A stretch of DNA of 64,000 nt from Chloroflexia bacterium SDU3-3 (GTDB taxonomy: Bacteria > Chloroflexota > Chloroflexia > Chloroflexales > Roseiflexaceae). Shown piece after piece: positions 2,051 to 24,599 of the stretch. How positions within the stretch are numbered: the stretch's first letter is position 1; the number at the start of each line of letters is the position of its first letter. The position numbers and the translations under genes are program-made. A model generated the notes under the pieces. That model was not told the origin of the DNA, searched no databases, and saw nothing but the letters and a program-made list of their open reading frames with translations. The stretch is taken from assembly GCA_009268125.1 (NCBI GenBank), contig WBOU01000014.1:62001-126000 (forward strand), written 5' to 3'.

Positions 2051-2914
2051 GAAAGCGTCACGGCTGCCGTTACCGATGGCGTGTAACTATAACGGGTTCT
2101 TTACTTTTAGCGCGCACGGCTGCCCTGGTGCTGCGCATGCTGGGCGATAATCAGTGGGCCTGATATGGGTGATTTTCCGCCTAGCACCTCGATGAATGCA
2201 TGGCAGGCTCGTTAGATGCGGTAGAAAGCATGAGATAGGTGATAGTAGCCATTAGAAAAGCGTAATACTTTGATACTCGTAATTTTCAAAAGGTTTTGTT
2301 ATCTATACCCGCTTTATTTTCTGAAAAAATATGAGATATGAGGTCATATTTATAGTATGGTATTCATTGCATAGCGGGTGTGTATTGGCTCTAACCATTG
2401 AAATATCATGTCAAAAGGAATAAATAAGCTGAGGTTTCTATCCATGAATATGAATCCAACCTCGCATTCTTATTAGAATTTTTTGATAATAGGTTTCATG
2501 AAAGCATTATAAGTTGCTTTGAATTAACCGATAGTTGTTAGTTTTCCCTTTTTAAATGTCAGGTGGGGTGGTATGCTTCCTGTGTCCCGCAAGCAACTAA
2601 GTTCAGATACAGATGATTGTGCGAAAAACTACAAATTACCGCGTCATTGGAGGCAATACGGTAGGTAAAACGGTGTAGTTTTTAGAAGAATAATAAATTA
2701 ATCGGGTAAGTGCGTGATTCTTTGAATATGAGGTGTGATTCGCATTTCGTAGCACACACGCATATAGATTCATACCGGTTAAGAGAGATATCTTCAAGCA
2801 GCATAGAGATGAGCTAATAACGCAACTGCAATAGACCATTCTAAAATTAAGATTTCTCTTTCATTACCCATAGAAATGACCCTGGGTCTAGCTTTTTGCT
2901 GTTTTGATACCAGC

Positions 2915-2928
2915 GATACGAACGTATC
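2915..2928. promoter_or_regulatory. GATACG-AA-CGTATC palindrome in the PKS leader
   Basis: A perfect 6-bp dyad with a two-base centre ends 23 bases before the chosen PKS start (2952). Another GATAC lies just upstream at 2906-2910. Its position makes it a candidate operator for a locus-specific repressor; no regulator gene is in the cluster itself. Confidence 0.35.
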
Positions 2929-2951
2929 TAACACTGTTGAGCGAGGAATGT

Positions 2952-5900
2952 ATGGCCGTACATGGCGAACATCCAGATCTTTCGAGCGCGCAACAACTGC
3001 CAACCGTCGCTTCTGGTGCGAGCGCCAGCGAAGCTATGCCCCTGCGCCGCGAGCCGATCGCGATCATCGGCATTGGCTGCCGCCTACCGGGTGGTGTTGT
3101 TGGGCCGCTATCGTTTTGGGACCTACTAGCCAGTGGCCAAGACGCAACCTCGGATGTCCCAGCCGACCGCTGGGACATTCGTTCGTTTTACGACCCCGAT
3201 CCGGCCAAGCCAGGGAAGCTGAAGACCTTTCACGGCGGCTTTCTCGACCAAGTGGATCGCTTCGACGCGCCGTTCTTCGGCATCTCGCCGCGCGAGGCCG
3301 ACTGCCTCGACCCGCAGCAGCGCCTGCTGCTGGAGGTCTCGTGGGAGGCGCTGGAGGATGCGGGCCTCGCGCCCGAGCGGCTGGCGGGCAGCAACACCGG
3401 CGTGTTTGTAGGAGCCTTCACGCTCGACTACAAGGTCATCCAGTTCAGTGCGGGCAGCCGCGACCTGATCGACTCGCACACTGCGACCGGCAGCATGATG
3501 ACCATGGTCTCCAATCGGCTCTCCTATGCCTACGACCTGCGCGGCCCGAGCATGTCGGTGGACACGGCCTGCTCGTCCTCGATGGTGGCGGTGCACCTGG
3601 CCTGCCAGAGCCTCTGGCGCGGCGAGTGCTCGCTGGCGCTTGCAGGCGGCGTGAATGTGATGACCACGCCCGAGTACACCATCGCCGAGTCGAAGGGCGG
3701 CTTCCTCTCGCCCGATGGCCGCTGCAAGACCTTTGACTCGCGGGCCAATGGCTACGCGCGCGGCGAGGGTGCGGGCGTGCTGGTGCTGAAGCCGCTGGCC
3801 CAGGCCCTGGCCGACGGCGACCCGATCTACGCGCTTATTCGCGGCACGGCGGTGAACCAGGATGGCCACACCCAGGGCATCACGGTGCCCAACGGCGATG
3901 CCCAGCAGGCCCTGCTGCGCGAGGCCTGCCGCCAGGCGGGCGTGGCCCCCTGGCAGCTGCAGTACGTCGAGGCGCACGGCACCGGCACGCCGGTGGGCGA
4001 CCCGATTGAGGCCAACGCGCTGGGCACGGCGCTGGCCGAGGATCGGCCCGAGGGTGAGTGCTGTGTGATCGGCTCGGTGAAGACCAACATCGGCCACCTG
4101 GAGGCGGCGGCGGGCGTGGCGGGCCTGATCAAGGCCGCGCTGGCCCTGCACCACCGGGCCATCCCGCCGCATCTGCACCTGATCAGCCCCAACCCTGCCA
4201 TCGCCTTCGACGCGCTGCGGCTGCGGGTTCCCCAGGCGCTTGAGCCGTGGCCCGCGCACAGCGGCCCCGCGCTGGCGGGCGTGAACTCGTTTGGCTTCGG
4301 TGGCACCAACGGCCACGCCGTGCTAGAGGAGGCCCCCGAGGGCGCGGTGCGCCACGCCTTCGCCACGGGTGCGGGCCAGCAGCGCCCGCACCTGCTGGCG
4401 CTCTCGGCGCGCGGCCAGGATGCGCTGGAGGCCACCGCGCTGGCCTACGCCGACATGCTTGAGCAGCAGCCCGAGGCCGCGCTCGACGCGGTGTGCGCCA
4501 CCACGGCGCTGCGGCGTGGCCAGCACGACCACCGTGTGACGGCGGTGGGCCACAGCCCCGCCGAGCTGGCCGAGCACCTGCGGGCCTTTGCGGCGGGCGA
4601 GTCGCGCCCGGGGCTGACGGCGGGCCGCGCCCTGGCGGGCAGGCGGCCTCGGCTGGCCTTCGTGTTCTCGGGGATGGGGCCGCAGTGGTGGGCGATGGGC
4701 CGCCAGCTGCTGGCCCAGGAGCCGGTGTTCCGCGCGGCGGTCGAGCGCTGCGACGCGCTGCTGAGCCAGCACGCCGACTGGTCGCTGCTGGCCGAGCTGG
4801 CGGCGGACGAGTCCGCATCGCGGATGAACGAGACCCAGATTGCCCAGCCCGCCAACTTCGCCCTGCAGGTCGGCCTGTTCGAGCTATGGCGCTCGTGGGG
4901 CGTCGAGCCGGATGCGATCGTGGGCCATAGCGCTGGTGAGGCGGCGGCCTTCTACGCGGCGGGCGTGATGAGCCTTGAGGAGGCGGTGCGCGTGATCTAC
5001 CACCGCAGCCGCCTGCAGCACCGCACCACCGGCCAGGGCAAGATGGTGGCTGTCGGCATCTCGCACCAGGAGGCGCTGGAGCTGCTGAAGGGCTACGAGA
5101 ATCGTATCTCGATCGCGGCGGTGAATAGCCCCTCGGCGGTGACGCTGGTGGGCGACACGGCCACGCTGGAGGAGTTTATCGCCCCGCTGCAGGCGCGCCA
5201 GGTGTTCTGCCGCTACCTGCGGGTGGAGGTGCCCTACCACAGCCACTACATGGAGGTCATCCGCGAGGATCTGCTGGCCGCGCTGGGCGATATCGCGCTG
5301 AGCCAGGCCCGCGTGCCGCTTTACTCTACCGCCACCGGCCAGCGCGCCGATGGCCGCGAGCTGAACGCCGAGTACTGGTGGCACAACGTGCGCGAGTCGG
5401 TGCGCTTCGCCGCCGCCGCCGATGTGCTGATCGGCGAGGGCTACGACCTGTTCCTTGAGCTTAGCCCGCACCCCGTGCTGGCCGGGTCGATCATGGAGTG
5501 CCTGGCGCATCGGCAGGCCACCGGCAGCGTGCTGCCATCCATCCGCCGCAACGAAGAGGAGCAGGCGGTGATGCTTGGCTCGCTGGGCGCGCTGTACACG
5601 CTGGGCCTTCCGGTGGCCTGGGATGCGCTCTACCCCGGCGCTGCCTATACCACGCTGCCGGCCTACGCCTGGCAGCGCGAGCGCTACTGGAACGAGTCTG
5701 AGGCGGCGGCGCAGATCCGCCTGGGCTACCAGGATCACCCGCTGCTGGGCCGCCCACTGGCGCTGCCCACCCCCACATGGGAGCAGGAGATCAACCGCCG
5801 CGCGCTGGCGTATCTCGATGACCACTGCATCCAGGGCGCGGTGCTCTACCCCGGCGCTGGCTATGTGGAGATGGGTCTGGCCGCTGGTCGGCTGGCGTTT

Positions 5901-8552
5901 GGCGCGTCGGATCTGGCGGTTGAGGATGTGGCCTTCCGCAAGGCGCTGTTCCTGCCCGATGGCGCGACGCCGCAGGTGCAGGTGCAGCTGGATGCGGCCA
6001 CGGCGCGTTTTAGCGTGTTCAGTCGCCAGCAGCCCGCCCAGGGCTGGACGCTGCACGCCGAGGGGCGGTTGCGCCAGCGCCAGGAGCTGCCGAGCGCGGC
6101 GCTGGCCCTGGATGGCATCCGGGCGCGCTGCGCCGAGGCGCTGGCGGGCGAGGCCTGCTACGCGCAGTTCGCGGCCCAGGGCTTCACCTACGGGCCGAAG
6201 TTCCAGGGCATCGCGCGGCTGTGGCGCGGCCAGGGCGAGGCGCTGGCCGAGATCTGCCCAACGGTAGATGCGGACGCGCTGGGCGGCTACCACCTGCACC
6301 CGGTCATCCTCGATGCCTGCTTCCAGGTGCTGATTGCGGTCAACCCCGACGCGGGCGCGGACCGCTCGGGCGTGTACCTGCCGGTGGGCATCGACCGCAT
6401 CCGCGTGGCGCGGCCCGCCGAGGGCGAGCTGTGGGGCTACGCCAGGGTGGTCGAGCGCACGCCGCAGCTGCTGCGCGGCGACATCGTGCTGGTGGATGCG
6501 GCGGGCGAGCTGATCGCCGAGATCAGCGGGTTCCGCGCCCAGGCGCTGGATCGAGCGCAGGGCGGGATGGCCGCCGACGCGCTGGAGCGCACCTTCTACG
6601 AGCCGGTGTGGCTGCCCCAGGAGCGCGGACAGGCCGCCGCCGCCCAGGCGGGCGCGTGGCTGGTGCTGGCCAACCGCCCCGAGGCCGAGGCGCTGGCCGC
6701 CGAGCTGGCCGAGCGCGGTCAGCGCTGCGTGCTGGTGGCCGATGGCGCGGCCTACCAGGAGATCGAGCCGGGCGCGCGGTATGTGCTGAACCCAAGTGAG
6801 AAGGCAGAGTTCAGCCGCCTGCTGGGCGACCTGCGGGCCGCCGGGCTGCCGCTGCTGGGCGGCGTGGCCCATATGTGGGCGCTGGCCGACCAGCAGGGCG
6901 AGGAGCTGGCCCCCGCCGAGCTGGATGCGGCGCAGCGGCGCGGCAGCCTGGCGCTGCTGCTGCTGACCCAGGCCCTGATCGAGGCGGGCGTGGCCCCCAA
7001 GATCTGGGTGGTGACGCGCGGCGCGCAGGCGGTGCGCGGCGAGCCCCAGCTAGCCGTGGCCCAGGCCCCGCTCTGGGGCATCGGGCGCGTGATCGGCTAC
7101 CAGGAGCTGGTGGGCTTCTGGGGCGGCGCGGTGGATCTCGACCCCGCGACACCCGCAGGCGAGGCCGCCGCGCTGGCCGACGAGCTGCTGACCCCGGCAG
7201 GCGAGGACCAGATCGCCTTCCGGGCTGGCCAGCGCTACGTGGCCCGGCTGGAGCACAGCGCGGCGCTCACCCCCGCGCTGCCCGCCCACTTCCGGCCCGA
7301 CGCCAGCTACCTGATCACCGGCGCGTTTGGCGCGCTGGGCCAGCTGGTGGCGCGCTGGATGGTCGAGCGCGGCGCGCGGCGGCTCATCCTGGCCGGGCGC
7401 AGCGCGCTGCCTCCCCGCGCCGAGTGGGCCGACCTTGCCCCCAGCAGCCCCGCCGCCGAGCGCGTGGCGCTCATCCGCTCGCTGGAGGCGGGCGGGGCCA
7501 GCGTGCACCTGGCCCAGGTGGATGTGGCCGACGAGGCCGAGCTGGCGGGCTACCTGGCCCAGTTCCGCCGCGAGGGCTGGCCCGCCGTGCGCGGCGTCAT
7601 CCACTCGGCGGGCATCGTGCGCGACCAGATCCTGATGCAGATGGACGCGGCCTCATTCACCGATGTGCTGCGGCCCAAGGTGCTGGGCGGCTGGGCGCTG
7701 CACCGCTGCCTGCGCGACACCCCGCTCGACTTCTTCGTGCTGTTCTCGTCGGTGGCCTCGCAGGTGGTCTCGACCGGGCAGGCCAACTACGCGGCGGGCA
7801 ACGCCTTCCTCGACTCGCTGGCCCAGCACCGGCGGGCGCAGGGCCTTCCGGCGCTCAGCATCAACTGGGGGCCGTGGGCCGTGGGTATGGTGCGCGACCT
7901 CAACCTGATCGAGCACTACGAGCGGCGCGGCATGGCCCCGATCGCCCCCGAGGATGGCATGAGCGCGCTGGGTCGCCTGCTGGGACAGCCCGTGGCCCAG
8001 GCCTCGGTGCTGATGGCTACCTGGCCGACGGTGCTGGAATACTACCCGCAGCACCCGCCGCTGTTCGCCCACCTGGCCCAGCAGGCCAATGCCGAGGCTG
8101 ACGACGCTGGCGAGCAGAGCCTGGCCCAGCGCATCGCCCAGGCCGAGGGGCCGGAGCGGCTGGCCCTGGTGGAGGAGCAGCTGCGCGATTTGGCCGCCAG
8201 GGTGCTGCGGCTCGACCGCGCCAAGCTGGATGTGCAGCAGCCGCTGAGCGCGCTGGGGATGAACTCGATGATGGCCATCGAGCTGAAGAACCGCATCGAC
8301 CTCACGCTGAATGTGACGGTCGCGGTGGTGGAGCTGCTGCAGGGCTTCGGGGTGGCGCAGCTGGCCGCCCGCCTGCTGCCGCAGATCGAGGCCCAGGTGG
8401 CGCTGGCATCCGCCGGGGCGCTGAGCGAGGAGGCCGCCCAGCAGATCGCCGAGCAGGTGGATGGTGCCACGCTCGACGAGCTGCTGAGCGAGCTGGAGAA
8501 TCTTTCCGATGAGGAGGCCGAGCTGCTGCTCGCTGGGCGCGAGGGGGCGTAG
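2952..8552 (+). CDS. Type I polyketide synthase module KS-AT-DH-KR-ACP
   Basis: Adds one malonate-type unit and reduces it to the enoyl stage (KR then DH, no ER). The 1866-residue product holds KS (~33-455; catalytic Cys207 in DTACSSS, then HGTGT and NIGH), AT (~566-865; Ser660 in GHSAGE; YHSH at the specificity site, so the substrate is not predicted), DH (~929-1210; His958 in DDHCIQGAVLYP, later LDACFQ), a KR structural half and catalytic half (~1200-1640; TGAFGALG at ~1456, SSVAS and NYAAGN), and ACP (Ser1772 in GMNSMM). ATG 2952 follows GAGGA four bases upstream; a TTG at 2904 in the same frame is a weaker alternative. The acidic tail LDELLSELENLSDEEAELLL is a docking-type end typical of PKS proteins that hand over to an NRPS. 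There is no loading domain, so the first KS must accept an acyl group in trans. Confidence 0.95.
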   Translation: MAVHGEHPDLSSAQQLPTVASGASASEAMPLRREPIAIIGIGCRLPGGVVGPLSFWDLLASGQDATSDVPADRWDIRSFYDPDPAKPGKLKTFHGGFLDQVDRFDAPFFGISPREADCLDPQQRLLLEVSWEALEDAGLAPERLAGSNTGVFVGAFTLDYKVIQFSAGSRDLIDSHTATGSMMTMVSNRLSYAYDLRGPSMSVDTACSSSMVAVHLACQSLWRGECSLALAGGVNVMTTPEYTIAESKGGFLSPDGRCKTFDSRANGYARGEGAGVLVLKPLAQALADGDPIYALIRGTAVNQDGHTQGITVPNGDAQQALLREACRQAGVAPWQLQYVEAHGTGTPVGDPIEANALGTALAEDRPEGECCVIGSVKTNIGHLEAAAGVAGLIKAALALHHRAIPPHLHLISPNPAIAFDALRLRVPQALEPWPAHSGPALAGVNSFGFGGTNGHAVLEEAPEGAVRHAFATGAGQQRPHLLALSARGQDALEATALAYADMLEQQPEAALDAVCATTALRRGQHDHRVTAVGHSPAELAEHLRAFAAGESRPGLTAGRALAGRRPRLAFVFSGMGPQWWAMGRQLLAQEPVFRAAVERCDALLSQHADWSLLAELAADESASRMNETQIAQPANFALQVGLFELWRSWGVEPDAIVGHSAGEAAAFYAAGVMSLEEAVRVIYHRSRLQHRTTGQGKMVAVGISHQEALELLKGYENRISIAAVNSPSAVTLVGDTATLEEFIAPLQARQVFCRYLRVEVPYHSHYMEVIREDLLAALGDIALSQARVPLYSTATGQRADGRELNAEYWWHNVRESVRFAAAADVLIGEGYDLFLELSPHPVLAGSIMECLAHRQATGSVLPSIRRNEEEQAVMLGSLGALYTLGLPVAWDALYPGAAYTTLPAYAWQRERYWNESEAAAQIRLGYQDHPLLGRPLALPTPTWEQEINRRALAYLDDHCIQGAVLYPGAGYVEMGLAAGRLAFGASDLAVEDVAFRKALFLPDGATPQVQVQLDAATARFSVFSRQQPAQGWTLHAEGRLRQRQELPSAALALDGIRARCAEALAGEACYAQFAAQGFTYGPKFQGIARLWRGQGEALAEICPTVDADALGGYHLHPVILDACFQVLIAVNPDAGADRSGVYLPVGIDRIRVARPAEGELWGYARVVERTPQLLRGDIVLVDAAGELIAEISGFRAQALDRAQGGMAADALERTFYEPVWLPQERGQAAAAQAGAWLVLANRPEAEALAAELAERGQRCVLVADGAAYQEIEPGARYVLNPSEKAEFSRLLGDLRAAGLPLLGGVAHMWALADQQGEELAPAELDAAQRRGSLALLLLTQALIEAGVAPKIWVVTRGAQAVRGEPQLAVAQAPLWGIGRVIGYQELVGFWGGAVDLDPATPAGEAAALADELLTPAGEDQIAFRAGQRYVARLEHSAALTPALPAHFRPDASYLITGAFGALGQLVARWMVERGARRLILAGRSALPPRAEWADLAPSSPAAERVALIRSLEAGGASVHLAQVDVADEAELAGYLAQFRREGWPAVRGVIHSAGIVRDQILMQMDAASFTDVLRPKVLGGWALHRCLRDTPLDFFVLFSSVASQVVSTGQANYAAGNAFLDSLAQHRRAQGLPALSINWGPWAVGMVRDLNLIEHYERRGMAPIAPEDGMSALGRLLGQPVAQASVLMATWPTVLEYYPQHPPLFAHLAQQANAEADDAGEQSLAQRIAQAEGPERLALVEEQLRDLAARVLRLDRAKLDVQQPLSALGMNSMMAIELKNRIDLTLNVTVAVVELLQGFGVAQLAARLLPQIEAQVALASAGALSEEAAQQIAEQVDGATLDELLSELENLSDEEAELLLAGREGA

Positions 8553-9791: not shown

Positions 9792-11855
<2,064 letters not shown>

Positions 11856-11867
11856 GGGAAACGAACT

Positions 11868-12092
11868 ATGAACCTTGAGGAGCTATTCGCGAGCGTGCTG
11901 AATGTGCCCGCCGAGACGCTGAGCGACGACTCGTGCCCGGCCACGGTGCGGGCCTGGAACAGCCTGGGCCACCTGAAGCTGATCAGCGCGATGGAGGAGA
12001 TCTTCGGCATCGCGTTCAGCAGCGCCGAGATCCGTGGGCTGAAGACGCTGGGCGGCGCGCGCGCGCTGCTGCAGGCCAAGGGCGCGCTGTAG
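11868..12092 (+). CDS. Free-standing acyl carrier protein
   Basis: A 74-residue carrier protein; the phosphopantetheine site is the Ser in WNSLGHLKLI at ~35. This SWNSLGH-type sequence is the kind found in small ACPs that serve FkbH-like or unusual starter and extender pathways rather than fatty-acid ACP (which has DSLD). It lies 12 bases after the condensation protein and 15 before E1-alpha, so it is the natural acceptor for whatever acyl group the dehydrogenase-like trio makes. Confidence 0.85.
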   Translation: MNLEELFASVLNVPAETLSDDSCPATVRAWNSLGHLKLISAMEEIFGIAFSSAEIRGLKTLGGARALLQAKGAL

Positions 12093-12107
12093 AGGAGCGC
12101 AATCACT

Positions 12108-13046
12108 ATGACCCTCACCACGACGCTTGAGCTATGGGAGCCGCAGACCGCCCTCGGGCAGCTGCCCGACGAGGATCTGGCCTTGATGCTGCGCATCCGC
12201 CACTTCGAGCAGGCCCTGCTCGACCTGTTCTCGCGCGGGAAGCTGAGCGGCACCACCCACACCTGCCTGGGCCAGGAATACGTGCCCGTGGCCATGCGCA
12301 CCCTGCTGCGCCCCAGCGACTACGTGTTCAGCCACCACCGTGGGCACGGACACTACCTGGCCCGCTTCGAGGAGCCGACCGGGCTGCTGGCCGAGATCAT
12401 GGGGCGCGAGGGTGCGGTGTGCGGCGGCGTGGGCGGCAGCCAGCACATCTACCGCGACCGCTTCCTCTCCAGCGGGGTGCAGGGCGAGAGCATGCCGGTG
12501 GCCGCCGGGGTGGCGCTGCACCTCAAGCGGGCGGGCCAGGGCGATCTGGCCGCCGTCTACATCGGCGATGGCAGCTGGAGCGCGGGCGGCGTCTACGAGG
12601 CGCTGAATATCGCCAAGCTGTGGCACCTGCCGCTGGTGGTGCTGACCGAGAACAACGGCATCGCGCTTTCCACCCCGCTGGAGTGCGAGCTGGCTGGCAC
12701 TATCGCCGGGCGGGCCAGGGCGTTTGGCGTGGCCTACGCCCACGTGGCCAGCAAGGATGTGTGCGCCATCCGCGCCCAGCTGGCCCCGCTGGTCGACGCG
12801 GCGCGCCGCGACAGCGAGCCGCTGGTGGTGGAGTTCGAGACCGACCGGCTGGGGCCGCACAGCAAGGGCGACGACACCCGCCCCGCGCACGAGCTAGACG
12901 CCCTGCGCGAGCGCGACTGGACCGCCGCCTACCGCGAGCAGTTCCCCGCGCAGTTCGCGGCGCTGGACGCCCAGGAGCGCGAGCGGATCGCTCAGGCCGT
13001 GCGCGATGTCGAGTCGCGCGGCCCCAGCGTGTGGAGGCAGGCATGA
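12108..13046 (+). CDS. 2-oxoacid dehydrogenase-like E1 component, alpha subunit
   Basis: Binds thiamine diphosphate and decarboxylates (or cleaves) a keto substrate together with the beta subunit. At 312 residues it is near the usual length of two-chain E1-alpha. The diphosphate motif runs from GDGSWSAGG to TENN (~152-182), and SHHRGHGHYLA and GGVGGSQHIY are the conserved substrate and TPP segments of the pyruvate/acetoin dehydrogenase type. Its stop overlaps the next start in ATGA. The location inside a PKS/NRPS operon, next to a free ACP, argues for a dedicated biosynthetic role rather than central metabolism. Confidence 0.88.
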   Translation: MTLTTTLELWEPQTALGQLPDEDLALMLRIRHFEQALLDLFSRGKLSGTTHTCLGQEYVPVAMRTLLRPSDYVFSHHRGHGHYLARFEEPTGLLAEIMGREGAVCGGVGGSQHIYRDRFLSSGVQGESMPVAAGVALHLKRAGQGDLAAVYIGDGSWSAGGVYEALNIAKLWHLPLVVLTENNGIALSTPLECELAGTIAGRARAFGVAYAHVASKDVCAIRAQLAPLVDAARRDSEPLVVEFETDRLGPHSKGDDTRPAHELDALRERDWTAAYREQFPAQFAALDAQERERIAQAVRDVESRGPSVWRQA

Positions 13047-14056
13047 GCGAGCGCGTGATCGAGAACCTGAACCGTGGCCTGCACACGCTGCTGGCCGCCG
13101 ACCCCGAGGTGTTTCTGCTGGGCGAGGATGTGTGCGACCCCTACGGCGGCGCGTTCAAGGCCAGCCGGGGTCTCTCCACCCGCTTCCCCGACCGCGTGCT
13201 GAACACGCCGATCGCCGAGAACGCGATCGTGGGCGTGGCGGCGGGCCTGGCGCTGGCGGGCCACAGGCCGATCGCCGAGATGATGTTTGGCGACTTCATC
13301 ACGCTGGGCTTCGACCAGATCGTCAACTTCGCCACCAAGTCGGCCACGATGTACGGCAGGCCCGTGCCCATGAATATGGTGGTGCGCTGCCCGGTGGGCG
13401 GCGGGCGCTCCTACGGCCCCACCCACAGCCAGAACCTGCAGAAGCACTTTCTGGGCGTGCCCGGCCTGCGTCTGTTCGAGCTGACGCCCTTCCACGACTG
13501 CGGCGAGCTGCTGGGCCACATGCTCTCGCTCGGCACGCCCAGCATTTTGTTCGAGGACAAGGTGCTCTACAGCCAGCCGATGCACCAGGGCGGCGCGGTC
13601 GACGACCTGTTCACCTACGAGAAATTCGGCCCGGGCGGCGCGTTTGTGCGGGTCGCGCCCGATGGCTTCGACAGCTGCGACGTGCTGATGATCGCCCCCG
13701 GCGGGATGCTGGCCCGCTGCCTCAGCGCCGCCAAGACCCTGCTGATCGAGGATGAGATCATCGCCCAGATCGTGGTGCCGCTGCAGCTCTACCCCTTCGA
13801 CCCCGCGCCGCTGGAGGCGCTGGCCGCCGCGAGCGGCCTGGTGCTGGTGGCCGAGGAGGGCACCGCAGGCGGCACCTGGGGCGGCGAGGTGGCCAGCCAG
13901 CTCTACGCGCGGCTGTGGGGCGCGCTGCGGCACCGCGTGGTGCAGCTCAGCTCGCACGACAGCATCATCCCCTGCGCGCCGCATCTGGAGCGCCAGGTGC
14001 TCATCCAGGCCGAAGATATCTATGCCGCAATCAAGGCGGAGGTTCTGCATGTATAA
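13043..14056 (+). CDS. 2-oxoacid dehydrogenase-like E1 component, beta subunit
   Basis: A 337-residue partner of the preceding E1-alpha. GEDVCDPYGGAFK, NTPIAENAIVGVAAGLALAG, FGDFITLGFDQIVN and the late VAEEGTAGGTWGGEV are classic E1-beta segments. It begins inside the stop of E1-alpha (ATGA) and ends eight bases into the E2 gene, so the three subunits are probably translationally coupled. The actual keto donor (pyruvate, hydroxypyruvate, a ketose phosphate or a branched oxoacid) cannot be read from sequence. Confidence 0.88.
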   Translation: MSERVIENLNRGLHTLLAADPEVFLLGEDVCDPYGGAFKASRGLSTRFPDRVLNTPIAENAIVGVAAGLALAGHRPIAEMMFGDFITLGFDQIVNFATKSATMYGRPVPMNMVVRCPVGGGRSYGPTHSQNLQKHFLGVPGLRLFELTPFHDCGELLGHMLSLGTPSILFEDKVLYSQPMHQGGAVDDLFTYEKFGPGGAFVRVAPDGFDSCDVLMIAPGGMLARCLSAAKTLLIEDEIIAQIVVPLQLYPFDPAPLEALAAASGLVLVAEEGTAGGTWGGEVASQLYARLWGALRHRVVQLSSHDSIIPCAPHLERQVLIQAEDIYAAIKAEVLHV

Positions 14057-15170
14057 GGTGCTTGTTCCGCTGGTGAACAACAACGAGGATACCTACACGC
14101 TCTCGCGCTGGCTGGTGAAAGATGGCCAGCAGGTGGCCGCCGACGACCTGATCGCCTCGGTCGAGTCGACCAAGGCCACGGTGGAGCTGGCCGCCGATCA
14201 GGCTGGCATCGTGCACCAGGCGGTGGCGCAGGGCGCGGCGGTGGCGTTTGGCGATGTGGCGGCCTATATCTTTGCCGACGAGGCCGAGCGCGCCGCCTTC
14301 CTGGCCCAGGGCCAGCCCGCCGCGCCCCAGGCCGCTACATCCTGCACTATCACCAAGGCCGCCCGCGAGCTGATGGACCAGCACGGCATCGCCGAGGCGC
14401 AGGTGCTGGCGCTGGGCAAGAAGATCGTGACCAAGGCCGATGTGGAGCCGCTGATCGGCGCGCAGGACGCGCAGCCAGCGGGCGGCATCGCGCTCTCGAA
14501 GCGCCAGATCGGCATTGGCGAGGTGGTCAGCCGCTCGTACCACAGCATCCCGCGCGCCTTTCTGGCCATGAAGGTCTACGTCGACGCCGCCCTAGCGGCC
14601 CTGGCCGAGCTCTCGGCCAGCAGCGACTGTATGATCGGCCTGACCGAGCTGCTGGTGCAGCAGGTGGCCCTGCTCCAGCCACAGTTCCCGCTGCTCTACG
14701 GCGGGCTGGCCGAGCCGGGCCGCTTCCTGCCCGCCGAGGGCGCGCACGTGGGCGTGACGATGGACGGCGGGCGCGGCCTATTCATCCCCGTGGTGCGCGA
14801 CGCCGCCGCCCGCAGCCTGCCCGAGATCGCCGACACGCTGATGGACTTCCGCATCAAGGCGCTGCGCAACTCCTTCCAGCCCGAGGATCTGGCGGGCGGC
14901 GCGGTCACGATCTCGCTGAATGTGGAGCCGGACACGCTGTTTGTGCTGCCGATCATCCTGCCCGATCAGGCGGCCATGCTGTCGCTGGGGGCCGAGCAGG
15001 AGGAGCTGTACCTAGCCGAGGGTGGCGCGGTGGCGCGGCGGCGCTTTGTGACGCTGGGCCTAGCCTACGACCATCGGGTGATCAACGGCTACGAGGCCGC
15101 GCAGTGGATGAAGGCCCTGAAGGCCCAGGTCGAGCAGGCTCGCCTGGCAGATGTAGGAGCGGCACAATGA
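14049..15170 (+). CDS. 2-oxoacid dehydrogenase-like E2 (lipoyl acyltransferase)
   Basis: A 373-residue E2. The lipoyl domain (~1-80) has the lipoyl Lys in VESTKATVEL; a peripheral subunit-binding segment (~98-138) has ITKAARELMDQHGI; the catalytic domain (~150-368) ends in DHRVINGYEAAQWM. In standard E2 enzymes this last motif reads DHRxxDG; here the conserved Asp is Asn while the catalytic His is kept. ATG 14049 overlaps the E1-beta stop by eight bases. No E3 gene is in the window, so reoxidation would rely on a housekeeping E3 or not be needed. It probably passes the acyl group from lipoate to the free ACP rather than to CoA (inference). Confidence 0.87.
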   Translation: MYKVLVPLVNNNEDTYTLSRWLVKDGQQVAADDLIASVESTKATVELAADQAGIVHQAVAQGAAVAFGDVAAYIFADEAERAAFLAQGQPAAPQAATSCTITKAARELMDQHGIAEAQVLALGKKIVTKADVEPLIGAQDAQPAGGIALSKRQIGIGEVVSRSYHSIPRAFLAMKVYVDAALAALAELSASSDCMIGLTELLVQQVALLQPQFPLLYGGLAEPGRFLPAEGAHVGVTMDGGRGLFIPVVRDAAARSLPEIADTLMDFRIKALRNSFQPEDLAGGAVTISLNVEPDTLFVLPIILPDQAAMLSLGAEQEELYLAEGGAVARRRFVTLGLAYDHRVINGYEAAQWMKALKAQVEQARLADVGAAQ

Positions 15171-18100
15171 GTGCGACACCTTTGCCCGATGGGGCGGCGC
15201 GGCTGCGGCTGCGCATGCGCTGGGATCAGATCGTGGGGTCGGGGCGGCCCGCCCAGCTACGCGTGGCGGTGCTGGCCAGCTTCACCGCTCAGCCGCTCGC
15301 GCCCTACCTGGGCGTGGCGCTGGAGGACGCGGCCCCGGCGGAGATCTGGGTCGGCCCGTACAACCAGATCGTGCCGCAGTGCCTGAGCGCCGAGAGCGAG
15401 CTGGCCCACTTCGGCCCCGACCTGCTGGTGGTGTGGCCGCGCCTGGAGGAGCTGTGGGGCGGCGAGCTGCCGCTGGATGGCGACCCGGCGGCCCAGATCG
15501 ACGATGCCGCCGCGCTGGCGGAGGCCTGCCTGGGCGCGGCCAGCCGCCTGGGCGCGCGGCTGCTGTTCGTGCTGCCCGCCGTGCCCGAGCTGCGCCCGCT
15601 GGGCCTGGGCGACGCGGGTAGCCCGCGCGCCGTGTCCGCCACCGCCGCCGCCGTGCGCGAGTCGCTGCGCGGCCAGCTGGCCGGGCGGCAGGGTGTGGCG
15701 CTGCTGGATGCCGAGGATCTGGTGCGCACCGTGGGCGCGGCCCGCGCCTACAACCGCCGCATGCAGGCGGTGGCCCGCATCCCCTTCTCGGAAGAGGTGT
15801 TCCACCTAGCCGGGCAGCGCATGGCCCGCCTGCTGGCCCTGAGCCAGCGCGCCGCCCCGCGCCTGCTGGTGATCGTGCCTGACGATGTGCTGTGGGGCGG
15901 CTCGCTGGCCGAGCTTGGCCCCAGCGGCGTGGATGTGGCCGAGGGCGGCCCCGGCGAGCTGCACCGCCAGATCCAGGCCTTCCTGCTGGAGCAGCGGCGG
16001 GCGGGCAACCGCCTGGCGATCTGCGGCGACTACGCCAAGGCCTCGCTGCGCGAGGTGCTGGCCCGCCGCGAGATGCTGCTGCGCCGCGAGCACCTGGTGG
16101 GCTGGCAGACCGACCCGCGCCCCTGCGCCGCGCTGCGCGCGCTGGCCGAGGACACCCGCACGGCCCTGGCCGATGTGGTGCTGATCACCGCCAGCGCGGC
16201 CTGCGCCACCGCCGTGGCCGCGCAGTTCCCCGAGGTGGCGCTGGTGCAGCTGCCCGAGGACGCCGCCGAGTGGCTCGCCGCGTTTCAGGCCAGCCCCGTG
16301 CTGGACATGCCGCCCCGCGTCGCCGCGCCCGCGCCCAGCCCCGCCGCCCAGCCCCGCGCGGCCAAGCCCAGCCTGGCCGACTTCCTGGCGCGGCTGGCGC
16401 TGAAGGTGGAGGTGGCCCCCGCCGAGCCACACGAGCTGGCCCACGTGGTCCATCTGACCCACCACACATCCGAGTTCCACCTGACTGGCGAGCAGTACGA
16501 CCAGCCCGCGCTCGATGCCTTCCTGGCCCAGCCGGGGGCCGAGTGCTGGCTCATCCGCGTCAGCGACCGCCTGGGCGACTACGGCGACGCGGGCGCGCTG
16601 CTGCTGCGGGCCGAGAGCGGCACCCTGGAGGTGGCGACCTTCCTGCTGAACTGCCGCGTTCTGGGCCGCAATGTGGAGTACGAGGTGCTGCGACGGCTGG
16701 CCACGATCGCCAGCGAGCGCGGCTGCGCCCAGGTGCGCCTGCTCCACCGCCCCACCGAGCGCAACGCGGTGGCCGGGGCCTTTGTGCGGGCCGTGGGCGG
16801 CCAGCCCGCCCCCGAGGGCGGCGCGAGCGCCACGCTGACCCCGGCCCAGCTGGCCGCGCTGGCCCCCCAGGGCCAGGCCCCATCCAGCTGCGGCGCGGAT
16901 CTGCCCGCGCCTAGCCCCAGCGCGGTCTCGCCCGCCGCCCGCTTCCTGGCGGCCCGCGTCGCGCGGCTGGGCGAGGATGGCGCGCGGGCCGTGGCCGAGC
17001 GCTTCGCCAGCTTCCAGCGCGGCGAGCAGCTGCTAGAGGCCGTGCAGGCCTACCGCCGCCGTTCGCGCCCCGATATGGATGTGGCCTATGTGGCCCCGCG
17101 CACCCCGCTGGAGGGCCAGCTGGCCGACGTGTGGGGCGAGGTGCTGGGACTCGACCGCATCGGCGTGCGCGACAACTTCTTTCACCTGGGCGGGCACTCC
17201 ATCCTGGCCACCCAGCTGGTGATGCGCCTGTACGACGTGCTGGGCATCGAGCTACCGGTGCGGATCTTCTTCGAGACGCCCACCATCGAGAGCATGGCGC
17301 AGGCCATCGACATCGTGCGGCGCACCGGCGACGACACCGCGTTTATCGCCGAGGCCCCCGAGTATGTGAAGGCCGAGGCCGTGCTCGACCCCAGCATCAC
17401 CGCCGAGGGCGCGCGCCCCGCCGAGCACACCAGCGACCCGCGCCGGATCTTCCTGACCGGCGGCACCGGCTACCTGGGCGCGTTCCTGCTGGCCGAGCTG
17501 CTGCGCCGCACCAGCGCCACCATCTACTGCCACGCCCGCGCCCGCGACGAGCAGGACGCCCTGGCCCGCATCGCTGCCAATCTTCAGCACTACGGCCTGT
17601 GGGATGAGGCCCAGCGCCACCGCCTCGTTCCGGTGGTGGGCGACCTGGCCCAGCCGCTGCTCGGCCTCAGCGAGGAGCGCTTCCTAGAGCTGGCCGACCT
17701 GATCGACGTGATCTACCACGCCGGTGCGATCACCAGCTTCATCTACCCCTACACCACGCTCAAGCCCACCAACGTGCTGGGCACCCAGGAGGTGCTGCGC
17801 CTGGCCAGCCGCATCCGGCTCAAGCCCGTGCACCTCACCTCCACGCTCTATGTCTTTGGCCCTGGCGACAAGCACGAGGACGGCGGCCCCATGCGCGAGG
17901 ACGATATCCCCGAGCACGTGGAGACCATGCACATCGGCTACCGCCAGAGCAAGTGGGTGGCCGAGCGGCTGCTGCTGCTGGCCCGCGAGCGCGGCATCCC
18001 GGTGGCGATCTACCGCCCCAGCCGCATCGCCGGGCACAGCCACACCGGCGCGTGCCAGACCAACGACTTCGTGTGGCGCATGATCCGCGCCTGCATCGAC

Positions 18101-18580
18101 GCGTCGAGCGTGTTCAACCAGGACATGACCATGGATATGGTGCCGGTGGACTACGTGAGCGAGGCCATCGTGCACCTCTCGCTGCGGCCCGAGTCGCTCA
18201 ACCAGGTCTTCCACCTGACCAACCCCAAGGTGCCGCGCCTGGATGAGATCGTCGAGTGGTCGCAGAGCTACGGCTACCCCATCCGCCGCGAGCCATACGA
18301 GACCTGGCGCGCGCGGCTGAAGGTGGCCGCCGAGCGCTCGAACCAGAACGCCTCGTTCGCGCTGGTGCCCTTCCTGCCGCAGGATCTGAGCCGCCAGCAG
18401 CTGGGCGACCTGCCCTTTGACGCCAGCAACACGCTGGCCGGGCTGGCTGGCTCGGGCATCGCCTGCCCGCTGATCGACGAGACCCGCTTCCACGTCTACC
18501 TAGACTACTTCACCCAGAGCGGGTTCCTGCGCACGCCCCAGGAGGTTGGGGCGGTGCTGGAGGAGGCCGGGGTGGCCTAG
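15167..18580 (+). CDS. FkbH-like protein with degenerate HAD domain, fused to PCP and thioester reductase
   Basis: A 1137-residue protein that starts in the ATGA of the E2 stop. Residues ~25-225 are the FkbH N-terminal domain (ASFTAQPLAPYLG, GPYNQIVPQ). Residues ~230-385 align with the FkbH HAD phosphatase, but the DLDNT nucleophile motif reads VPDDV before LWGG, the SKN motif reads GDYAK, and the DDNP motif reads TASAA, so phosphatase chemistry looks lost. Residues ~410-555 keep the FkbH GNAT-like domain, including LTHHTSEFHLT, SDRLGDYGD, NCRVLGRNVE and RPTERNAV. A PCP follows (Ser678 in LGGHSILATQ), then an NAD(P)-dependent thioester reductase (~755-1130; TGGTGYLG, TSTLYVFG, YRQSK). No adenylation domain loads this PCP. 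The R domain should release an aldehyde or alcohol and is the only dedicated release domain in the locus. Confidence 0.85.
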   Translation: MSATPLPDGAARLRLRMRWDQIVGSGRPAQLRVAVLASFTAQPLAPYLGVALEDAAPAEIWVGPYNQIVPQCLSAESELAHFGPDLLVVWPRLEELWGGELPLDGDPAAQIDDAAALAEACLGAASRLGARLLFVLPAVPELRPLGLGDAGSPRAVSATAAAVRESLRGQLAGRQGVALLDAEDLVRTVGAARAYNRRMQAVARIPFSEEVFHLAGQRMARLLALSQRAAPRLLVIVPDDVLWGGSLAELGPSGVDVAEGGPGELHRQIQAFLLEQRRAGNRLAICGDYAKASLREVLARREMLLRREHLVGWQTDPRPCAALRALAEDTRTALADVVLITASAACATAVAAQFPEVALVQLPEDAAEWLAAFQASPVLDMPPRVAAPAPSPAAQPRAAKPSLADFLARLALKVEVAPAEPHELAHVVHLTHHTSEFHLTGEQYDQPALDAFLAQPGAECWLIRVSDRLGDYGDAGALLLRAESGTLEVATFLLNCRVLGRNVEYEVLRRLATIASERGCAQVRLLHRPTERNAVAGAFVRAVGGQPAPEGGASATLTPAQLAALAPQGQAPSSCGADLPAPSPSAVSPAARFLAARVARLGEDGARAVAERFASFQRGEQLLEAVQAYRRRSRPDMDVAYVAPRTPLEGQLADVWGEVLGLDRIGVRDNFFHLGGHSILATQLVMRLYDVLGIELPVRIFFETPTIESMAQAIDIVRRTGDDTAFIAEAPEYVKAEAVLDPSITAEGARPAEHTSDPRRIFLTGGTGYLGAFLLAELLRRTSATIYCHARARDEQDALARIAANLQHYGLWDEAQRHRLVPVVGDLAQPLLGLSEERFLELADLIDVIYHAGAITSFIYPYTTLKPTNVLGTQEVLRLASRIRLKPVHLTSTLYVFGPGDKHEDGGPMREDDIPEHVETMHIGYRQSKWVAERLLLLARERGIPVAIYRPSRIAGHSHTGACQTNDFVWRMIRACIDASSVFNQDMTMDMVPVDYVSEAIVHLSLRPESLNQVFHLTNPKVPRLDEIVEWSQSYGYPIRREPYETWRARLKVAAERSNQNASFALVPFLPQDLSRQQLGDLPFDASNTLAGLAGSGIACPLIDETRFHVYLDYFTQSGFLRTPQEVGAVLEEAGVA

Positions 18581-22066: not shown

Positions 22067-22206
22067 TGACATGAATGCGCCTGAAAAGGTAGTAAAAGTG
22101 AGCATACGTCAAGAGATTGTTTTCATAAAGAAAAAGTGCGGATGCGCTGTTTTGAGCCTGATGAGTGAGTAAATAGCTGGTAGATTGAGAGAATGGTTGG
22201 TAGATT

Positions 22207-22387
22207 GGCAGAAGGTCAGGGGGAACTGGCAGAAGGTCAGGGGGAACTGGCAGAAGGTCAGGGGGAACTGGCAGAAGGCCAGGGGGAACTGGCAGAAGGT
22301 CAGGGGGAACTGGCAGAAGGTCAGGGGGAACTGGCAGAAGGTCAGGGGGAACTGGCAGAAGGCCAGGGGGAACTGGCAGAAGGTCAG
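22207..22387. repeat. 21-bp tandem repeat (minisatellite), 8.6 copies
   Basis: Eight full units of GGCAGAAGGTCAGGGGGAACT type (22207-22374) and a partial ninth (to 22387). Units 4 and 8 share the same T-to-C change (GGCC), which suggests block duplication of four units. The unit is 21 bases, so several frames stay open through it, giving heptads such as NWQKVRG and LAEGQGE; these frames have no good ribosome-binding site or family. The rest of the gap 22067-22517 holds nothing else except the AAGGAG of the next gene. Confidence 0.95.
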
Positions 22388-22517: not shown

Positions 22518-24599
22518 GTGGAAATACCCTGGGATGCAATTATTATTGGCGCGGGACTAGGCGGCCTCTCGGCGGCGGCGCACCTTGCCAAGGCAGGCAA
22601 GCGCGTGCTGGTGCTAGAGCAGGGCAGCGGGCCGGGCGGCTACGCCCACGGCACCCAGCGCGGCGACTACTACTTCGACTTCAGCCTGCACAGCATGGAC
22701 GGCATCAGCCCGGGCGGCTGGGCGCACGCCGCCCTGCGCGACCTGGGCGTGCTGGATGAGGTGCAGTTCACGCGGCTCGACCCCTACTACGTCACGCGCT
22801 TCCCCGAGCACGAGGTGACGGCCCACGCCGACCCGGTGGCCTACGAGGCCGAGCTGATCCGCCAGTTCCCCGACGAGGCCGACAGCATCCGCTCGCTGTT
22901 CGACGAGATGTTCGCGATCTACCGCGAGACCCACCGCATGCGCGCCGACGGCGACATGGACCTGCCCGGCGGCCCCGACGCCATGCCCAAGCGCTACCCC
23001 CACCTCATCCACGCCATCACCGAGAGCTGGGGCCAGCTGGTGGCCCGCCACATCCGCGACCCCAAGCTGCAGGCGATCATCGGCACGCTGTGGACCTACT
23101 GCGGCCTGCCGCCCGCGCGCCTGAGTGCCCCGGCGCTGGCGCTGGTGTGGGGCAGCGCCCACCACTACGGGGCCTACTACCCGCGCGGCGGCTCCATGGC
23201 CCTGAACCACGCTCTGGAGCGCGTGATCGCGCTGGGCGGCGGCGAGCTGCGCTACGGCCAGCGGGTCGAGAAGGTGCTGGTGCGCGACGGCCTGGTGTGC
23301 GGCGTGCGCACCGCAGGCGGCGAGGAGCTGCCCGCCCAGGTGGTGATCTCCAACGCCAGCGCGCCCAGCACGTTGCTGAAGATGGTGGGCGGCGAGCACC
23401 TGCCCGCAGGCTACCTGACCCGCGTCGACACCACGCCCGACTCGCTCTCGACCTTCAACATCTTCATCGGCCTCGACCGCGACTTCGCCGCCGAGGGCTG
23501 GCCGCCCCACGAGCTGTTTATCTCCGAGGACTACGACCTCGACGGGCAGTACGAGGCCATCCAGCGCGGCGACTGGGAGCGCGTGCCGCTGGTGATCGCC
23601 CACTACACCCACGCCAACCCCGACGCGGCCCCCAAGGGCGGCGCGGTGATGACGATCATGGCGCTGGCCCCCTGGGCCTACGCCGACACCTGGGGCACCA
23701 AGGGCGATCTGGCCAGCTACAGCACTAGCTCCGAGTACCAGCGGATCAAGCAGGAGGTGGCCGACGTGCTGCTGCGCCGCGCCGAGCAGCATGTGCCCGG
23801 CCTGCGCGCCGCCGCCCGCGTGATCGAGATCGCCACCCCGCTGACCAACGCGCAGTACACGCTCAACCGCAGCGGCGCGGTGTTCGGCTACGAGCAGTCG
23901 GTGGAGGGCATGTACCTGTGCCGCCTGACCGAGGCCACGCCGATTGCCAACCTGTTTCTGGCGGGCGCGTGGACAGTGCCGGGCGGCGGCCAGTCGGCGG
24001 CGCTGCTCTCGGGCATGGATGCGGCCAAGCACACGCTGGGCTATCTGGCGGGCGACCCGCACGTGCCCCAGGCCGAGCAGGCCTCGCTGGAGCGGGCGCT
24101 GGGCGCGCCGCAGGGTGCGGTGGCCGTGGGCCAGCAGGCCCCCGAGTTCCGCATCACCGCCGTCGGCTCGGGCCGCGAGGTGAGCCTGGCCAGCAGCCTG
24201 GGCCGCCCGCTGGTGCTGGTGTTCGCCAGCCAGGGCACCACGGCGGCGGTGGGCGAGATCAATGCCGCCGTGCGGGCCGCGCTGCCGCTGCCGGGGCAGG
24301 CCACCGTGGCCAGCATCTTCGACTTCGGCAACGTGCCCGCCCTGTTCCACGGCATGATCACCTTTATGCTCAAGCGCGCCTACAAGGAGTCGGCGCAGGG
24401 CGTGCCAGCGGGCTTCGACCCCGCCGACTACGTGATGATCCTGCCGGACTGGAGCGGCCAGGCCTGCAAGGCCTACGGCATCGGCGGTGTCGAGAAGCAG
24501 GCCGCCGTGGTGGTGATCGACCGTGGCGGCGTGGTGCAGGGCGTGTTCCAGGGTGACGATCTGGCGGGGCAGACCATGCGCCTGCTCCAGTGGATGTGA
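22518..24599 (+). CDS. FAD-dependent oxidoreductase (phytoene desaturase/CrtI-like) fused to a Cys-less redoxin domain
   Basis: A 693-residue flavoprotein. Residues ~5-35 are the dinucleotide fold (IIGAGLGGLSAAAHLAKAG, then VLVLEQ). GGSMALNHALERVI and the C-terminal LFLAGAWTVPGGGQSAALLSG are typical of the CrtI/CrtO desaturase-isomerase branch. From ~540 to the end a thioredoxin/AhpC-like domain follows (VGQQAPEFRI, RPLVLVFASQG), but the peroxidatic or CxxC cysteines are replaced by QGTTAAV. GTG 22518 has AAGGAG six bases upstream. It lies 19 bases before the megasynthase, so it probably dehydrogenates or isomerises an intermediate of this pathway. Confidence 0.82.
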   Translation: MEIPWDAIIIGAGLGGLSAAAHLAKAGKRVLVLEQGSGPGGYAHGTQRGDYYFDFSLHSMDGISPGGWAHAALRDLGVLDEVQFTRLDPYYVTRFPEHEVTAHADPVAYEAELIRQFPDEADSIRSLFDEMFAIYRETHRMRADGDMDLPGGPDAMPKRYPHLIHAITESWGQLVARHIRDPKLQAIIGTLWTYCGLPPARLSAPALALVWGSAHHYGAYYPRGGSMALNHALERVIALGGGELRYGQRVEKVLVRDGLVCGVRTAGGEELPAQVVISNASAPSTLLKMVGGEHLPAGYLTRVDTTPDSLSTFNIFIGLDRDFAAEGWPPHELFISEDYDLDGQYEAIQRGDWERVPLVIAHYTHANPDAAPKGGAVMTIMALAPWAYADTWGTKGDLASYSTSSEYQRIKQEVADVLLRRAEQHVPGLRAAARVIEIATPLTNAQYTLNRSGAVFGYEQSVEGMYLCRLTEATPIANLFLAGAWTVPGGGQSAALLSGMDAAKHTLGYLAGDPHVPQAEQASLERALGAPQGAVAVGQQAPEFRITAVGSGREVSLASSLGRPLVLVFASQGTTAAVGEINAAVRAALPLPGQATVASIFDFGNVPALFHGMITFMLKRAYKESAQGVPAGFDPADYVMILPDWSGQACKAYGIGGVEKQAAVVVIDRGGVVQGVFQGDDLAGQTMRLLQWM

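Follow-up and report, generated by a model that had tools for sequence, protein, structure and literature searches.

FkbH proteins without HAD phosphatase motifs beside lipoyl E1/E2 cassettes: a candidate hydroxyacyl-loading group

Introduction

What does an FkbH protein do once its phosphatase motifs are gone? FkbH normally turns a glycolysis phosphate (bisphosphoglycerate) into a glyceryl building block, with OzmB as an example of a stand-alone-type FkbH glyceryl transferase/phosphatase, and FkbH domains are usually taken as glycerate loaders. The question is raised by a 64-kb stretch of Chloroflexia bacterium SDU3-3 DNA (hereafter the window), in which an earlier note had described an FkbH lacking all four HAD catalytic motifs but keeping its GNAT-like part, possibly turned acyltransferase or docking scaffold and fed by the neighbouring E1/E2. 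We call FkbH proteins with lost phosphatase motifs dead and those with an intact phosphatase live.

The gene run

The genes concerned lie on the forward strand:

2904..8552 (+): polyketide synthase, upstream in the same gene run
9792..11855 (+): condensation (C) domain followed by FkbH_N alone, without an adenylation domain
11868..12092 (+): free acyl carrier protein (ACP), 74 aa, with a WNSL site; missed in the earlier reading
12108..13046 (+): E1-alpha, of the two-component-transketolase-like group
13043..14056 (+): E1-beta
14049..15170 (+): E2, lipoyl acyltransferase, with the lipoyl Lys and DHRxxNG present
15167..18580 (+): dead FkbH-PCP-thioester reductase protein, 1137 aa

The free ACP sits between the C-FkbH_N gene and E1-alpha. 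ACP, E1-alpha, E1-beta and E2 are encoded together at 11868-15170, which is the make-up of a lipoyl glycolyl-ACP cassette (SclQ/Qnc/Nap type). Both E1-alpha and E2 have their active residues.

The window E1-alpha scores below the cut-offs for pyruvate dehydrogenase E1-alpha. In a tree of E1-alpha sequences, 29 rows split from 10 ordinary ones with support of 100/99 (long branches were flagged): the window, 26 others of its type and, outside these, L182 and RenH of the renieramycin cluster. We therefore set aside feeding by an ordinary pyruvate dehydrogenase, as the window E1-alpha falls with RenH and apart from the ordinary enzymes. Because this E1-alpha belongs with a transketolase-like group and not with ordinary 2-oxoacid dehydrogenases, the unit it supplies is likely to be glycolyl from a sugar phosphate.

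Loss of the phosphatase motifs

The 1137-aa protein contains the following domains, in an order that includes that of FkbH:

15248..15853 (+): FkbH_N, SGNH-like fold, stand-alone-FkbH lineage
about 15863..16306 (+): HAD-like domain without intact motifs I-IV
16367..16846 (+): GNAT-like domain with E436 and Cys496 (codon at 16652)
17117..17308 (+), aa 651-714: PCP (carrier) domain
17447..18529 (+), aa 761-1121: thioester reductase domain

The motif losses described in the earlier note are borne out, as all four are altered. Motif I reads VIVPDDV at 15869-15889 in place of the D-x-D-x-T of live FkbH, so that the nucleophile Asp is replaced by Val and the second Asp aligns with D239. The SKN motif has become GDY at 16025, the Lys motif (N-W-x-x-K) has become TDPRPCA around 16109, and DD[NS]P has become TASAA at 16187. 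Loss of phosphatase function, which the note had also proposed, is the plain reading of these changes. Its further claim that the GNAT-like part is kept holds for the fold and the Cys but not for the first segment, which reads TSEF for TNQF, a change common to the whole dead group. The span it gave, 15860-16320, suits the HAD domain, whereas the GNAT-like domain begins only near 16367, slightly beyond its end.

In profile searches the protein falls short of the FkbH cut-off. Against the NCBIfam FkbH model (TIGR01686, cut-off 146.65) it scores 129 bits and four other dead proteins score 56-78 bits, compared with 281-301 bits for three live FkbH. The HAD-IIIC model, whose cut-off the three live FkbH pass, matches neither the window protein nor the four other dead ones at E up to 0.01. 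The same genome also encodes an intact paralogue, a live FkbH-PCP on a contig other than the window's (contig C12, L002), which scores 281 bits with TIGR01686 and passes the HAD-IIIC model. Third-codon-position GC is 0.94-0.96 in all five domains of the 15167..18580 gene, so the dead FkbH frame genuinely codes for protein.

Residues 1-571 were modelled with AlphaFold2 from six sequences (mean pLDDT 69.9). The model contains an SGNH-like domain (28-229), a HAD-like domain, in which the stretch 244-262 has pLDDT < 50, and a GNAT domain (412-560). The top fold match, 3slr, combines an FkbH-like N-terminal part with a phosphatase part (Z 20.3; 333 residues are aligned within 24-383); the high rmsd of 10.3 may be due to the placement of the two domains. 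Most rows of the fold search are SGNH and GNAT folds, and missing other folds there carry no meaning. The HAD of the window is a diverged homologous domain, not a chance likeness. From the sequence and known GNAT motifs, we take Cys496 to adjoin the carrier-arm loop of the GNAT fold. A second model (GNAT to PCP, one sequence) was poor, with a mean pLDDT of 49.8, and was set aside.

Relatives in three phyla

Relatives were reached by two routes. Searching with the window E1-alpha brought up plasmids from Paenibacillus polymyxa (L048) and from Streptomyces sp. NBC_01136 (L049), in both of which a dead FkbH adjoins E1 genes. A genome_contigs scan with five E1-alpha sequences confirmed at least 529 relatives, of which the best 80 were kept; 74 of these loci have E1-beta and E2, and three have FkbH, all of them dead (Lentzea sp. 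NBRC 105346, Micromonospora yasonensis and Micromonospora sp. HK10). For the second route, six dead FkbH were made into a profile, and a search of genomes from the same class (394) and family (250) as M. yasonensis found seven more (in G1062, G1006, G1024, G997, G867, G928 and G589). A plasmid search with the GNAT part returned 65 records, one of which (H60, a Paenibacillus plasmid) is L048.

The total is 13 dead FkbH from three phyla: that of the window, which is from Chloroflexota, and 12 from Actinomycetota and Bacillota. Five Micromonosporaceae sequences are 68-94% identical to one another and those of L173 and L174 are 86% identical, so the 13 represent about eight separate lineages. Sampling is biased in that the window was given and five loci (L048, L049, L072, L074 and L078) were reached through E1-alpha.

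The group shares a distinct signature. HAD motifs II-IV are gone in every member, with several actinobacterial ones retaining D-x-D in motif I, and all 13 keep DRxG[DE][YH]G. The GNAT-domain Cys (Cys496 in the window) is present in 13/13 dead and 27/27 live aligned proteins. One GNAT position is D or E in all 13 but Q in 35/35 phosphatase-intact FkbH (the 27 and 8 further ones).

The link to E1/E2 drawn in the earlier note recurs well beyond the window. E1-alpha, E1-beta and E2 occur at 11 of the 13 dead loci (counting L169, where E2 runs off the contig) and at none of 28 control loci, within stretches of 12-25 kb plus the 64-kb window for the dead loci and 5-19 kb for the controls. Among the seven dead FkbH reached by the FkbH profile alone, E1/E2 is present at five (Fisher p 6e-5), or in three of four when counted by lineage (p 8e-4), with remaining relatedness left uncorrected in both values. 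A phosphatase-dead, GNAT-retaining FkbH group associated with lipoyl E1/E2 cassettes is real. A literature search, with most subscription journals outside its coverage, returned no account of a phosphatase-dead FkbH beside E1/E2.

Two further genes belong to the system. One encodes a small carrier protein bearing W[TN]SL; it lies beside these genes at 12 of the 13 loci and was not found in L175. The other encodes an adenylation-free module, an NRPS C domain followed by FkbH_N, and is present at 11 dead loci. This count includes L169, where a contig end cuts the first C-FkbH_N gene; in L177 the contig ends before such a gene could appear, and about 31 kb read in L175 contain none.

The two loci lacking E1/E2 are L173 and L174. 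Whole-genome searches of their genomes (G867 and G928) found no E1 of the window type, only ordinary-type E1-alpha, the best scores being 149 and 180 bits versus 568 for the window's. Since dead FkbH occurs there without a window-type E1, E1/E2 is not the sole donor, which weakens the idea of a loader specific to E1/E2. In both loci the dead FkbH, read by eye, continues into a ketosynthase-III-like domain (L173 8129-10744; L174 7176-10133).

E1-alpha/E1-beta/E2 cassettes are themselves common (L053-L132), and 71 of the 74 complete ones among the best 80 loci have no FkbH nearby, so E1/E2 systems can manage without it. The E1-alpha proteins of the dead-FkbH loci do not form one group in the E1-alpha tree.

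Origin and selection

The earlier note had implied a simple loss of motifs. Sequence comparison instead indicates that the protein is a mosaic, with N-terminal and HAD parts matching stand-alone FkbH and a GNAT-like part from the in-module FkbH lineage, itself altered (Q to D/E). For example, identity between the window protein and the stand-alone FkbH of L019 is 58% in the N-terminal part and 41% in the HAD part. The window GNAT part is 43% identical to a GNAT-only domain (which in L019 lies directly before a PCP), compared with 37-38% for in-module FkbH and 33% for the stand-alone GNAT.

Trees agree with this division. For FkbH_N, 12 of the 13 dead proteins group with two live stand-alone FkbH (97/97), and the FkbH_N domains of NRPS proteins group with in-module FkbH (100/99). 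For GNAT, all 13 dead proteins group with the GNAT-only domain of L019 (97/88), and this group sits next to in-module FkbH with weaker support.

L019 (74-10509) encodes a C-FkbH_N protein whose HAD is altered in part, followed by an intact FkbH, one more gene and then GNAT-PCP-C-A-PCP. Given this split layout and the part-wise identities, we infer that the window gene is a fusion across a split C-FkbH-PCP module, with L019 as a possible earlier stage of that split.

Across six pairs of dead proteins, HAD dN/dS is 0.23-0.71, compared with 0.11-0.18 in live FkbH of the same clusters. The dead FkbH_N and GNAT parts have values of 0.17-0.56, and every domain and pair stays below 1. The HAD is thus relaxed and the rest of the dead protein is kept, although the dead GNAT parts are under less constraint than live ones in most pairs.

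Proposed function and alternatives

We propose that the dead FkbH is not a phosphatase but a carrier-to-carrier transferase that loads a hydroxyacyl unit, probably glycolyl, and we put the probability of this at roughly one half. A ketose phosphate would be cleaved by E1-alpha/E1-beta to give a two-carbon unit (probably glycolyl), which would pass to the lipoyl arm of E2 and then to the free ACP (11868-12092). The GNAT-like domain would take it from there, probably on Cys496 as a putative acyl-cysteine (the chemistry of the cysteine and the direction of transfer are presumed), and give it to the neighbouring PCP. The C domain of 9792-11855 would join the upstream polyketide, whose probable source is the synthase at 2904..8552, to the new hydroxyl, and the reductase domain would release the predicted product. 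The HAD phosphatase could be dispensable in such a scheme because the donor carries no phosphate. At the seven dead loci with a live FkbH, the unit may be glyceryl.

This transferase reading is favoured by the common motif loss, the shared Cys and the Q-to-D/E change, by the presence of E1/E2 (11/13), a free carrier (12/13) and C-FkbH_N (11/13), and by the GNAT grouping (97/88), dN/dS below 1, the active residues of E1/E2 and the placement of E1-alpha. Against it stand L173 and L174 without E1, the 71/74 cassettes without FkbH, the live FkbH at seven dead loci and the lower constraint on dead GNAT parts in most pairs.

The cassettes without FkbH also speak for the best-surviving alternative, in which the dead FkbH is a non-catalytic scaffold that only tethers E2 or ACP to the module, the PCP being loaded by E2 itself. 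Such direct priming without FkbH is proposed for pepteridine and cited for naphthyridinomycin in the available part of one account (PMC5384830). However, a mere dock would need neither the Cys kept in 13/13 nor a consistently changed GNAT position, and we consider a scaffold rather unlikely.

We think it less likely still that the protein is a glyceryl transferase whose donor comes from a live FkbH elsewhere (here the C12 paralogue), with E1/E2 serving another step. A live FkbH does occur at seven of the 13 dead loci (five with E1/E2, and L173 and L174 without), and the window genome has its live FkbH-PCP on another contig. But at six dead loci, including the window, E1/E2 is present and the stretch read holds no live FkbH.

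The raised HAD dN/dS would suit a decaying relic, with the FkbH part inactive and the module dying, but this is improbable given dN/dS below 1 in every domain and pair and recurrence in three phyla with the Cys kept; simple pseudogene decay is likewise set aside on the open frame, the codon bias in all domains and that recurrence.

Least probable of all is a HAD that still hydrolyses using relocated acidic residues: D239 aligns with the second motif I Asp and several actinobacterial members retain D-x-D, but the alignment part of the check suggested in the earlier note places no acidic residue at the nucleophile position (Val in the window) or at motif IV, the Lys and SKN motifs are gone, and the HAD-IIIC model finds no match at E up to 0.01.

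We also consider a broader reading, somewhat short of even odds, in which the dead FkbH form a distinct enzyme family. One FkbH type would have contributed the N-terminal and HAD parts and another the GNAT, and the phosphatase would have been lost. The joined protein would then have spread across three phyla, loading adenylation-free C-FkbH_N modules with unphosphorylated hydroxyacyl units that it takes from a carrier or a lipoyl donor. If so, C-FkbH_N modules could be charged without adenylation or an acyl phosphate.

If the transferase reading is true, it describes a route for sugar-derived two-carbon units into peptides and polyketides, and D/E for Q in the GNAT motif together with the W[TN]SL carrier would mark such clusters. 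Genome-mining tools would misread the dead group, which probably uses a unit other than glycerate and would need no bisphosphoglycerate. With the two FkbH half-reactions separated in nature, the role of the GNAT domain becomes directly testable.

Comparison with known systems

The dead protein has the domain order, the folds and the Cys-containing GNAT-like part of FkbH of both the OzmB type and the in-module C-FkbH-PCP type. In-module FkbH likewise occurs in an NRPS module without an adenylation domain, according to the part of the source available (PMC8949500). The dead protein differs by its HAD motif loss, the Q-to-D/E change, its two-lineage mosaic and its E1/E2 neighbours.

The cassette resembles that of scleric acid, for which, in the available part of the report, ACP, E1-alpha, E1-beta and E2 are proposed to turn a ketose phosphate into a glycolate unit (PMC6335953). 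By gene make-up, SclQ1-4 and the quinocarcin and naphthyridinomycin genes (Qnc, Nap) have the same separate ACP, E1-alpha, E1-beta and E2 genes of similar size as the window (same partial source, PMC6335953). However, the scleric acid gene table, as far as that text extends, has no FkbH (PMC6335953), whereas the window does.

Two further systems are likened from partial accounts. Rif15 of rifamycin is described as a two-subunit transketolase that takes a C2 unit from 2-ketoses, and so is, like the window E1, a two-subunit ThDP enzyme, but it transfers the unit to rifamycin S and not to a lipoyl E2 or carrier protein (PMC6002545, in part). In pepteridine, a pyruvate-dehydrogenase-like E1/E2 is proposed to prime an NRPS carrier directly, but the proposed substrates are 2-oxo acids and the part of the text available describes no FkbH (PMC5384830).

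Other features of the window

Overlapping tandem repeats of 12-63 bases lie within an open frame at 1308-1525. An intergenic array at 22206-22387 holds 8.7 copies of a 21-base unit with 97% matches, and 22518-24599 encodes a phytoene-desaturase-like protein in which the region close to the C-terminus gives a weak AhpC/TSA-like match.
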